Positions 41,884 to 44,856 of a stretch of 64,000 nucleotides of DNA are shown here, piece after piece. The stretch lies in the NCBI RefSeq assembly GCF_011297335.1, contig NZ_JAAOTJ010000014.1, positions 124,001-188,000 of the forward strand. Reading direction: 5' to 3'. Positions within the stretch are counted from its first letter, which is position 1, and each line of letters opens with the position of its first letter. Under the pieces are notes generated by a model that was not told where the DNA came from, made no database searches, and saw nothing but the letters and a program-made list of their open reading frames with translations. Both the position numbers and the translations under genes were made by a program. The DNA is from Catellatospora methionotrophica. Its GTDB lineage: Bacteria > Actinomycetota > Actinomycetes > Mycobacteriales > Micromonosporaceae.

Positions 41884-42684
41884 ATGCGTTGTGCGAGCTG
41901 CGGCCAGACCAACAGCGACCCGTCCCGTTCCACGTGCGCCCGCTGCGGCGCGCCGCTGTCGGCCGGGCAATTCGAGCCGGTGGCCGAATCCCTGCCGGTC
42001 GCCGCCTCGCACCCCGACTTGCTGACGCCGACGTCCGCCGGCGGCCCGAACGGACGCCGCTCCCGGGCGCGCACACCCGTCCTGGTGACGCTCATCGTCG
42101 TGGCCGGCGTCGTCGCCACGGTGTGGCTGTGGCGCGACGGGGGCGGCACGCCGGACGCTCAGTCGACCACCGCCCCGTCTGCCGCCGCGAGTGCGTCGCC
42201 CATCTTCTCCCCGCCGCCCGCGCCCATGCCCGGTCCCGACCCCGCCGTGCAGGCCCGTGAACTGGACCGGCTGCTCGACTACAGCGTGACCAGCCGCACC
42301 CGCCTCATCTCCGCGAACGGCCGGGTGGGCGGGTGCTCCGGGGTTGCCCGAGCCGTCGACGACCTGGTCCGAGTCGGCGACGAGCGCCGCGACCAGCTTC
42401 GGCGGCTCGACGCGCTCGACCTGTCGGAGCTGCCCGACGGCGCGCGGCTGCGCCAGTCGCTGCGCCGGGCGCTGGAACTGTCGTTGCAGGCCGACGAGCA
42501 GTACGTCGTCTGGGGCAAGTCGGTGGTCGGGTACGGGTGCGGGTCGGGCGCGAACGATAACGCCCGCAAGCAGGGCGACGCCTACTCCCGCTCGGCGGGC
42601 GTGCACAAGTCCGACTTCCTGGCGATGTGGAACCCCGTGGCCGACCGGTTCGGATTGCGGCAACGCGATCGCGAGCACATCTGA
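41884..42684 (+). CDS. Zinc-ribbon, single-pass membrane protein
   Basis: A 266-residue protein. The N-terminus is a zinc ribbon of two CxxC knuckles, RCASCGQ and CARCGA, spaced 12 residues apart. A Gly/Arg-rich linker, one membrane segment (VLVTLIVVAGVVATVWLW) and a Ser/Pro/Ala stalk follow, then an extracellular helical domain (residues 120-266) with the pair GGCSGV and GYGCGS, likely a disulphide, and ARELDRLLDYSVTSRTRLI at its start. No family recognised. It is divergent from the urease operon and convergent with the motif-sharing pair. Confidence 0.7.
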   Translation: MRCASCGQTNSDPSRSTCARCGAPLSAGQFEPVAESLPVAASHPDLLTPTSAGGPNGRRSRARTPVLVTLIVVAGVVATVWLWRDGGGTPDAQSTTAPSAAASASPIFSPPPAPMPGPDPAVQARELDRLLDYSVTSRTRLISANGRVGGCSGVARAVDDLVRVGDERRDQLRRLDALDLSELPDGARLRQSLRRALELSLQADEQYVVWGKSVVGYGCGSGANDNARKQGDAYSRSAGVHKSDFLAMWNPVADRFGLRQRDREHI

Positions 42685-42689
42685 CCCGG

Positions 42690-43058
42690 TCAGAACGGCC
42701 AGTACCGGGTCACGATGTCGGTGGCGCGGGCCAGCGTCTCGGCGAGGTCGGTGCCGCTGGTCACGAGCGCCTTGAGCCGGTCCAGCCCGCGCTGGACCCG
42801 GCCCTGGTTCGGAGTGCCGTTGCCCAGCTCGCCGGTGATGGCGTCCAGCTCGTCGCGCGCGGTGTCGCGATCGGACAGCTCGTCGAGCCGCTCCTCGATC
42901 TTCCGGAGCAGCTCCTGCAGCTCCTGGTACCTTTCCGCCGACTCGGCGCTTCGGAAGTTGTACTGGTTGAACGTGCCGCCCGTGCTGGCGATGGCGGCCT
43001 GCGCGTGCGGATGGACGGTGGTGTGGAAGACCTGCTGCGGCCGTGCGGGTTCAGTCAT
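42690..43058 (-). CDS. Small coiled-coil protein with N-terminal shared motif
   Basis: A 122-residue protein. Residues 11-34 carry a motif (FHTTV, a short spacer, then ASTGGTFNQYN) that recurs almost unchanged at the extreme C-terminus of the membrane protein encoded 16 bases upstream. Residues 37-70 form a charged coiled coil (ERYQELQELLRKIEERLDEL) and the rest is helical (RDELDAITGELG, LVTSGTDLAETLARATDIV). No catalytic residue is visible. The Gly/Asn/Gln-rich motif at a chain terminus, followed by a helical domain, resembles the plan of effector partners that dock through short beta motifs. Function unknown. Confidence 0.75.
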   Translation of the reverse strand: MTEPARPQQVFHTTVHPHAQAAIASTGGTFNQYNFRSAESAERYQELQELLRKIEERLDELSDRDTARDELDAITGELGNGTPNQGRVQRGLDRLKALVTSGTDLAETLARATDIVTRYWPF

Positions 43059-43074
43059 CGATGGGCGCTCCTGT

Positions 43075-44856
43075 TCAGGACTGATGCTGCTGGAAGATGC
43101 CGCCGGTGCTGGCGACGGCGACCTGGCCGCCGAACACGGTGGTGTGGAAGTTCTGCACCTGGGCGATGCGCTGCGCGAACTCGGCGGTGTCGTAGCCGTT
43201 CTCGGACAGGAAGCCCAGTACCGCGTCGCCGGCCGCCCGCTCGATCAGCTTGGCGTACTTGGCCGCGTCGAGCTCCTGCAGGTGCTTGACGATCAGCGGG
43301 TCGGCCGCCAGCTCCCGGACGCTGCGCCGCGCACCGTAGTCGCGGATGCGCAGGTCGCGCTCGGTGCGCGGGGAGCGGTACATGCGCCAGTGGGTGAGCG
43401 CCATGCGCCAGGCCAGCCGCCCGGCCCGCCAGCCGGACGCCGCGACGTCGGCGGGGAAGTCCCGGAGGGTGTCCAGCAGGGCGCGGGTCGCGACCCGTTC
43501 CGGTCGCAGGGTGTCGCCGAGCTGGTAGCGGTCCTGGATCGGCGGCAGCACAGCGGAGACGAACTCGGTGTAAAGCATGCCTCCCTCCACCGCCACGTGG
43601 ACGAACGCCGAGACCGTGATGCCGAGCTCCTGGGCCCGGACGAGCAGCCGGCCGTCGGCGTCCTGGACGTCGTTGCCGACTCCGGTGACCAGAACCCGCT
43701 CGTAGTAACGCAGGCCGGACTGCGGCTGGCGCTTGACGGCCTCCACCACCTCGTCGGACGCCGTCGAGTAGGGCACGCAGTTCACCGGTTCGAGCAGCGG
43801 GTCGGTGAGCGTCCGTACGCCGTCGGCGACCAGGTACTCCATCTGGTGCGCGTTGGGCAGGCGGGCCCCGTACGGCAGGGCGGGGTCGTTCATGGCCGTC
43901 ACGGAGTCCTTGAGCCGCTGGTAGATGCGCGGGCCGACATCGGCGGCGATCGGCGCGTCGCTGCCGGGGTCGGCGGGCCGCAGGATGAGCGCGAAGCTCC
44001 AGCCGTACTTGAGCCGGGACCCGCTGCCGAGGAACGGCTCGCTCTGCTGGACGGTGATGTTGCCGTACTGGGCTGCGGCGACGGTGTTCACGCGGCGCAC
44101 GATGCGCTCGTTGGGCAGGTCAGGCCGCGACGGCGGGGCGTCGAGGGCCAGCTCCTCGCTGATCACCCGGTACGCCTTGACCCGGAAACTCCACAGCAGG
44201 CCGAGGCAGGCCGCAGTGAGCGCGAACGGTGCGATCCGGCCGATGGCAGCCTGCGCCTGCACCGCGTACCCCAGCAGGTCTGATTCGACGGCGAAGCGCA
44301 GCAGGTCCTCGACCAGGCCGGCGAGCGGCGACGGCTCCTGCGGCGACGGCGTCAGCGGCGAGCGCGGCGACGGCGTGGAGGCCGGCGCGGTGTCGGCCAG
44401 CAGGGTCAGCGGCAGCAGCAGCGCGTTGGGCAGGCAGCACAGCGCGATGAGGCCGCCGGCCAGATACATTCCCAGCCGCCGCAGGCGCTGTGGAGTCACG
44501 GTCCGCGACCAGCGGACCCCGAGGATGGTGTATCCCAGCGAGAGGAAGGACATGGTCGCCAGCGGGGCCAGGCACAGCCCGGCGACGACCAGTGCCGCGA
44601 TGGTGAGGTGGCGGGCCAGCAGCAGCCGCCGGGCGCGGAAGCAGTGCCGGATGACCGGGTCCAGGTCGAAGCCGAACGAGGGGGCCACGGCGCGGTGCTC
44701 GTCCTCGACTGTCTCGGCGATCACCTGGTGGGCGAAGTCCTGGTCGACGTACGGCGCTGCGCACAGGTGGCGGGTGTCGTCGGTGAGCCGCCGGGGCGGG
44801 TGGTAGGTGGGAAAGCCGAACGGGCGGGCGGGGCTGGACTGGCTGGGGACCGACAT
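43075..44856 (-). CDS. Multi-pass membrane protein with C-terminal shared motif
   Basis: A 593-residue protein. Residues 1-75 are soluble (HLCAAPYVDQDFAHQVIAET and APSFGFDLDPVIRHCFRAR look conserved). Hydrophobic segments lie near 82-103, 104-113, 130-155 and 208-225, with a Pro/Ser linker between. Residues 245-560 form a large cytoplasmic domain (QYGNITVQQSEPF, ERVLVTGVGNDVQDADGRLL, EGGMLYTEFVSAVLPPIQDR). The last 24 residues (FHTTV, spacer, ASTGGIFQQHQ) match the N-terminal motif of the next protein. I do not recognise the family. The two genes are 16 bases apart and surely co-transcribed. It may recruit its partner through the shared motif. Confidence 0.75.
   Translation of the reverse strand: MSVPSQSSPARPFGFPTYHPPRRLTDDTRHLCAAPYVDQDFAHQVIAETVEDEHRAVAPSFGFDLDPVIRHCFRARRLLLARHLTIAALVVAGLCLAPLATMSFLSLGYTILGVRWSRTVTPQRLRRLGMYLAGGLIALCCLPNALLLPLTLLADTAPASTPSPRSPLTPSPQEPSPLAGLVEDLLRFAVESDLLGYAVQAQAAIGRIAPFALTAACLGLLWSFRVKAYRVISEELALDAPPSRPDLPNERIVRRVNTVAAAQYGNITVQQSEPFLGSGSRLKYGWSFALILRPADPGSDAPIAADVGPRIYQRLKDSVTAMNDPALPYGARLPNAHQMEYLVADGVRTLTDPLLEPVNCVPYSTASDEVVEAVKRQPQSGLRYYERVLVTGVGNDVQDADGRLLVRAQELGITVSAFVHVAVEGGMLYTEFVSAVLPPIQDRYQLGDTLRPERVATRALLDTLRDFPADVAASGWRAGRLAWRMALTHWRMYRSPRTERDLRIRDYGARRSVRELAADPLIVKHLQELDAAKYAKLIERAAGDAVLGFLSENGYDTAEFAQRIAQVQNFHTTVFGGQVAVASTGGIFQQHQS

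Follow-up and report, generated by a model that had tools for sequence, protein, structure and literature searches.

Two adjacent genes in the 64,000-nucleotide window, the whole stretch of DNA analysed here, encode a 593-residue membrane protein (gene 1) and a 122-residue DUF5955 protein (gene 2), and the C-terminal tail of the first matches the N-terminal head of the second. Across relatives the motif changes from locus to locus, and the matching is specific, locus-specific, mutually insulated, and maintained. On balance, we favor the reading that the two genes encode a signaling module of two proteins in which a private motif, most likely of the amyloid type, joins like with like and the partner body is switched on. 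Filamentous soil bacteria would thus probably use the pair as a lock-and-key alarm system of the amyloid type. The matching itself is observed directly, and we infer physical binding, a cross-beta structure, the direction of the signal, and an immune role.

Gene pair in the window

The features of the locus are as follows.
41884..42684, plus strand: 266-aa protein; zinc-ribbon-like start (CxxC..CxxC), a single hydrophobic segment, and additional C-terminal sequence; convergent with gene 2
42690..43058, minus strand: gene 2, 122-aa partner, DUF5955 (PF19380, residues 47-112)
42702..42947, minus strand: gene 2 body, predicted four-helix bundle, residues 38-119 (AlphaFold2)
42960..43034, minus strand: gene 2 N-terminal matching motif, residues 9-33, QVFHTTVHPHAQAAIASTGGTFNQY (alignment to the gene 1 tail)
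43068..43072, minus strand: AGGAG, ribosome-binding-site-like, within the 16-base gap ahead of the gene 2 ATG (sequence)
43075..44856, minus strand: gene 1, 593-aa membrane protein (open reading frame [ORF])
43084..43155, minus strand: gene 1 C-terminal motif, residues 568-591, QNFHTTVFGGQVAVASTGGIFQQH (alignment to the gene 2 head)
43147..44109, minus strand: gene 1 predicted folded alpha/beta domain, residues 250-570 (AlphaFold2, pLDDT mostly >90)
44194..44628, minus strand: gene 1 membrane region, residues 77-221 (hydropathy; long helices in the AlphaFold2 model)

The first-pass annotation had reported both ORFs and a terminal motif shared between them, and the two frames and both sets of coordinates were correct. 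Local alignment of residues 568 to 591 of the 593-aa protein with residues 9 to 33 of the 122-aa protein gave 15 identities with one gap and a score of 65. Of 20,000 shuffled versions of the first 60 partner residues, none reached 65 against the 50-residue tail (maximum, 52). With both proteins taken at full length, 1 of 2,000 shuffled partner sequences reached the score (maximum, 77), and the window pair alone is therefore strong only for the end-versus-end comparison. The main weight for the matching comes from the relatives and not from this single pair. A motif profile built from 4 sequences was searched against the window's own genome, and it returned these two places at E values of 7.5e-14 and 2.8e-13; the next two matches were noise (E values of 1.8 and 3.7). 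The DNA identity that had been noted around the motif is present, yet most of it reflects codon bias, with 13 of the 15 identical residues using the same codon where 10.0 were expected.

Gene 1 had no Pfam or NCBIfam match at E values up to 10. Hydropathy gave three to four hydrophobic segments (the overlapping 77-108 and 94-112, then 128-155 and 203-221). The single-chain AlphaFold2 model had a mean pLDDT of 89 and a pTM of 0.86, and its alpha/beta domain, which is probably cytosolic, found weak fold matches only, START/Bet v 1-like or KA1-like. Gene 2 scored 28.3 bits against PF19380, above the gathering cutoff of 27.1, and its single-chain model had a mean pLDDT of 81; no convincing PDB match to its body was found, and the DUF5955 body lacks an assigned fold or catalytic site. 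The pLDDT fell below 50 at residues 576 to 593 of gene 1 and at residues 11 to 15 and 17 to 29 of gene 2. Both motifs are thus mostly unfolded, beside well-folded bodies, in predicted monomers, which are single-chain models and silent on assembly. Gene 2 also matched the last third of the PADLOC candidate defense protein PDC-M14B (E value of 2.6e-7), which suggests that the gene 2 module is elsewhere fused to another domain.

Distribution of relatives

Gene 1 is a single copy in its own genome. At E values up to 0.001, 72 of 200 genomes from its family and 64 of 394 from its class contain relatives. A phylum-wide draw with a larger gene 1 profile matched 23 of 396 genomes, 15 strongly and 8 weakly (E values of 6e-7 or worse). 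The named relatives are two Micromonospora. Within its own genus, gene 1 was present in only 3 of 11 genomes among those listed, the window's own included, and the system is therefore patchy. DUF5955 likewise matched once in the own genome. Across the 200 genomes it was above the cutoff at seven places, six of which adjoin gene 1 when the coordinates are compared. At the seventh (L215; 27.4 bits), no gene 1 relative lay within the 3.2 kb examined, and a gene 1 relative was likewise absent at four places below the cutoff (L211 to L214).

From 180 first loci, 172 had a gene 1 ORF (the eight without were L074, L101, L128, L134, L145, L149, L168, and L170), representing 156 distinct proteins and 120 genomes, counted as loci mapped to genomes. 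A partner candidate, picked by third-position GC (GC3) and not by the motif, was present at 170 of the 172; 168 loci were complete enough for analysis, and 85 were retained after gene 1 bodies at least 50% identical were dropped. By-eye reading was done among the loci listed, and the statistical tests took in every row.

Matching of tails and heads across relatives

In the 85 nonredundant loci, tails scored a mean of 66.7 against their own heads and 27.6 in other combinations, and none of 10,000 permutations reached the own-pair mean. The own partner ranked first for 54 of the 85 tails (one tie allowed). Two control regions were at background and not significant: when the head was compared with an upstream stretch of gene 1, the own partner was first in 3 of 85 cases and 2017 of 10,000 permutations reached the observed mean, while with the tail against the partner's C terminus the values were 2 of 85 and 1331 of 10,000. 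A score of at least 45 was reached by 68 of the 85 own pairs versus 412 of 7140 mismatched combinations, which supports the proposal in the first-pass annotation of a docking or amyloid-type signaling pair. The window pair and those 68 loci share one layout: one protein carries the motif at its C terminus, and the protein of the adjacent gene carries it at its N terminus.

Nineteen genomes carry two or more matched systems. Among these, 40 of 40 tails preferred their own partner over the others in the same genome, in a comparison that took in only systems with an own score of at least 45. The own-pair preference and this insulation within genomes indicate that the motif differs between loci but is kept matched in each. 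In addition, tail-tail and head-head similarities covaried in the 68 pairs when gene 1 body similarity was held constant (partial Spearman coefficient, 0.345; reached by 0 of 500 Mantel permutations). The tail and head are NNIFGGQQAFDSSNVKFEQHN and NTIHGGMQAFASDHFTMVQHN at L031 (Micromonospora) and NSGVLNLGGTNDFTNTTFGDQAQVQNHGS and NSGIVNAGGTNSFTNTTFGDQAQVQNHGS at L166, and NTGPVYTAAQGTGSTGYVAAQGP occurs in tail and head alike at L063. At L216, from Nonomuraea gerenzanensis, both proteins carry a tandem octapeptide repeat (tail, GSNFGNAPGSNFGNAPGSSF; head, GTNYGNAPGSNFGHAPGSHF). Accordingly, the family does not conserve the FHTTV and ASTGG letters first proposed as the shared motif; conservation lies in the agreement between the two ends.

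Seventeen of the 85 loci scored below 45. In three, gene 1 ends before the tail (L024, L095, and L159), and in four the tail is present and a recognizable partner next door is absent (L017, L079, L103, and L111). A matching neighbor is absent at L047, and at L119 the wrong ORF had been chosen and the matching partner lies in another frame. The remaining eight look related by eye and score low. The two families occurring widely without the motif, or the motif occurring in one partner only, had been named beforehand as the sign of a chance duplication. The finding is mostly the opposite, with 68 of 85 loci matching; the other 17 include the four loci with a tail and no adjacent partner and the three without a tail. 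Three paralogous loci (L198, L199, and L200) of genus g70, probably Streptomyces, have the body without the motif tail and without a matching neighbor; such tail-less gene 1 paralogues are possibly a housekeeping form. In the phylum-wide draw, 11 of 11 genomes of family f21 that matched gave matches of this tail-less type, at profile positions of about 27 to 510. At L117, two gene 1 paralogues stand in tandem at the expected partner position.

A recent local duplication or gene conversion of the tail, with no shared function, was a competing explanation for the shared ends, and the motifs in the window are indeed only about 50 bases apart. Over the 68 pairs, 603 of 1039 identical residues used identical codons, compared to 542 expected from the codon use of both genes (0.580 versus 0.522). 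This excess, seen in 45 of the 68 pairs, is small, and it is clear in a few loci, for example L063 (22 versus 12.6) and L166 (23 versus 14.5). However, the match is kept in 68 of 85 loci whose gene 1 bodies are less than 50% identical and whose motifs differ. Codon use and the many different yet matched motifs thus speak against recent duplication as the general cause, which we regard as highly improbable. Because a few loci clearly exceed the codon expectation, gene conversion may occasionally contribute to maintaining the match.

Character of the motif

The tail motif had a median aligned length of 28.5 residues. Relative to the bodies, it was enriched in N (6.2-fold), G (2.3-fold), Q (1.9-fold), and S (1.7-fold) and depleted in L (0.2-fold), R (0.4-fold), and E (0.4-fold). 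A G-x(3-5)-G-x-x-A-x-G spacing, a pattern picked after looking at the data, occurred in 40 of 136 segments versus 5.2 in shuffled ones, with each pair contributing its tail and its head as separate segments. Glycine spacings peaked at 5 to 6 residues with a second rise at 10 to 11, which is compatible with short stacked beta turns. The PP/RHIM-type G-x-Q-x-G core was not enriched (3 of 136 segments versus 5.5 shuffled), and G-x-Q-x(1-4)-G was not clearly enriched among the same segments (22 versus 15.0 shuffled; maximum, 25). Against Pfam at E values up to 10, 88 motif segments gave two unrelated weak matches; RHIM, HET-S, PP (Ses_B), and sigma were absent from these matches, and profile HMMs are weak on motifs this short. 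The RHIM model is presumably present in Pfam. HET-S, PP (Ses_B), and sigma models are named in PMC12261475.

Docking without amyloid formation, in which tail and head pair as a discrete beta-strand or beta-helix heterodimer that anchors the partner at the membrane without polymer or templating, would account equally well for matched and insulated pairs, and it fits the absence of any known amyloid-motif Pfam family among the matches of the 88 segments (E values up to 10). In contrast, the two ends are alike rather than complementary, which would favor like-with-like stacking. The N/G/Q/S-rich composition and a C-terminal/N-terminal layout that is that of published amyloid pairs point the same way, and we consider nonamyloid docking unlikely.

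Partner bodies and gene coupling

The partners of 76 of the 85 loci were scanned against Pfam; the nine low-scoring loci named individually above were left out because a credible partner ORF had not been chosen there. At E values up to 0.01, 13 Pfam families were matched in all, including PNP_UDP_1 in 20 partners, DUF5955 in 20, EAD1 in 2, bDLD3 in 1, and CAP12/Pycsar TIR in 1; in other partners, the Pfam match was weak or absent. All three of the PNP-type partners scanned matched the PADLOC PN-superfamily effector model. The partner body is swappable, being a PNP-superfamily enzyme, DUF5955, EAD1, bDLD3, or a CAP12-type TIR. In the portions available, PMC7159879 and PMC8195603 describe PNP, TIR, EAD1, and bDLD3 as modules that act as effectors or recruit them in conflict systems, with enrichment of these systems among multicellular bacteria. 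At 33 of the 76 loci, the partner start codon lies one base before the gene 1 stop codon and overlaps it.

Such tight gene coupling, together with a small, helical partner in the window, would suit a brake, an antitoxin-like arrangement in which the membrane protein is kept inactive by the head occupying its tail. However, a brake does not account for partner bodies that are enzymes or a TIR domain and is very unlikely.

The roles could also be reversed, with the membrane protein as executioner, like Bell or HeLo, whose motif is also C-terminal, and the partner as trigger or regulator. In favor of this reading, the position of the motif on gene 1 is Bell-like: the motif order is the same as in Bell/NLR pairs, and at least 55 of the 76 partners have no recognized enzyme domain. 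Against it, 20 of the 76 partners have a PNP-superfamily domain and 1 has a CAP12-type TIR, which are effectors in described conflict systems, and gene 1 is large and has an alpha/beta domain, whereas the available part of PMC7889193 describes Bell as a small domain. We judge the reversal to be decidedly unlikely and favor the partner as the effector because its bodies are swappable.

Proposed mechanism

In the favored signaling module, gene 1 would be a multipass membrane sensor that combines a folded alpha/beta domain with a flexible tail, and gene 2 would be a soluble protein whose flexible head is joined to a body serving as effector or adaptor. Once triggered and clustered, the membrane protein would start a short cross-beta (amyloid-type) assembly of tails and heads. 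This assembly would recruit or template the partner at the membrane, and the partner body would be switched on. A PNP-type or TIR body would then cleave nucleotides, and a DUF5955 body, as in the window, or an EAD1 or bDLD3 body would act by recruitment or by membrane or adaptor action. Such a module would probably serve an anti-phage or other cell-suicide response. It is an evenly balanced question whether these loci make up an NLR-free class of amyloid signalosome, with a polytopic membrane sensor, interchangeable immune effectors, and dozens of orthogonal, coevolving amyloid codes, two or three of which operate side by side per cell without cross talk.

If this is true, bacterial amyloid signaling extends beyond NLR proteins to a membrane protein, DUF5955 and the unnamed membrane family of gene 1 acquire a role, and nature supplies a large collection of motif pairs, both matched and mismatched, for studying short-motif specificity. 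The triggers of such amyloid systems are given as an open question in the accessible part of a review (PMC7889193), and a membrane-embedded candidate sensor makes this question testable.

Comparison with known systems

The closest likeness of layout is to the Bell/NLR pairs of BASS (Dyrka et al. 2020, as described in PMC8086366 and PMC7889193). In the sections of these sources available, BASS genes are adjacent or overlapping, the motif is C-terminal on a membrane-targeting protein and N-terminal on its partner, and there are many motif families, which occur in actinobacteria. BASS motifs are also described there, less often, with CHAT or TIR domains. In contrast, no NLR (NB-ARC/NACHT NTPase) was among the 13 Pfam families of the 76 partners at E values up to 0.01, and the window partner, at 122 aa, likewise lacks one. 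The partner bodies here are instead a PNP-type enzyme, DUF5955, EAD1, bDLD3, or TIR. Judged on architecture, gene 1, with 593 aa, three to four hydrophobic segments, and an alpha/beta domain, is not the small helical bundle of Bell. Because these two defining features, the NLR and Bell, are lacking, we do not file the pair under the Bell/NLR pairs.

Gene 1 is not assigned to EACC1 either, as it had no Pfam match and EACC1 was absent among the weak matches of 20 relatives; the EACC1 model is presumably present in Pfam. No caspase family was found among the 76 partners (Pfam, E values up to 0.01). The EACC1 system is similar in being an actinobacterial two-gene system with the membrane protein first and varied effector domains in the second gene, but it has a single conserved membrane helix and a partner frequently with a caspase-superfamily domain, and matched terminal motifs do not feature in the available part of its description (PMC7159879). 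EAD recruitment (Kaur et al. 2020, 2021; PMC7159879 and PMC8195603), as far as those texts are accessible, shares the like-with-like pairing of small domains from adjacent genes, with the paired domains closest to each other within a locus. However, EADs fold into small domains and belong to named families, whereas the motif here has about 28 residues and many letter codes.

The fungal PUASM (PNP_UDP-associated motif) is a further parallel, since a PNP_UDP enzyme and the receptor encoded beside it are coupled by a short G/Q-rich motif whose peptides form fibrils and show prion behavior (PMC9815663, in part). PUASM differs in being fungal, in lying at the C terminus of the enzyme, and in having a NACHT NLR rather than a membrane protein as the receptor (PMC9815663). 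A literature search, limited in reach, found no published report on this membrane family or on DUF5955.

Neighborhood of the pair

On visual inspection, the window pair has a large PKS/NRPS-like ORF on one side and urease-like ORFs on the other, and the region is not a recognized defense island. The 266-aa protein convergent with gene 2 gave zinc-ribbon matches that were weak and below the cutoff. By tblastn, relatives of it lie beside the pair at 17 of 178 loci of other genomes, one of the 17 being N-terminal only, and this protein may be a third component.
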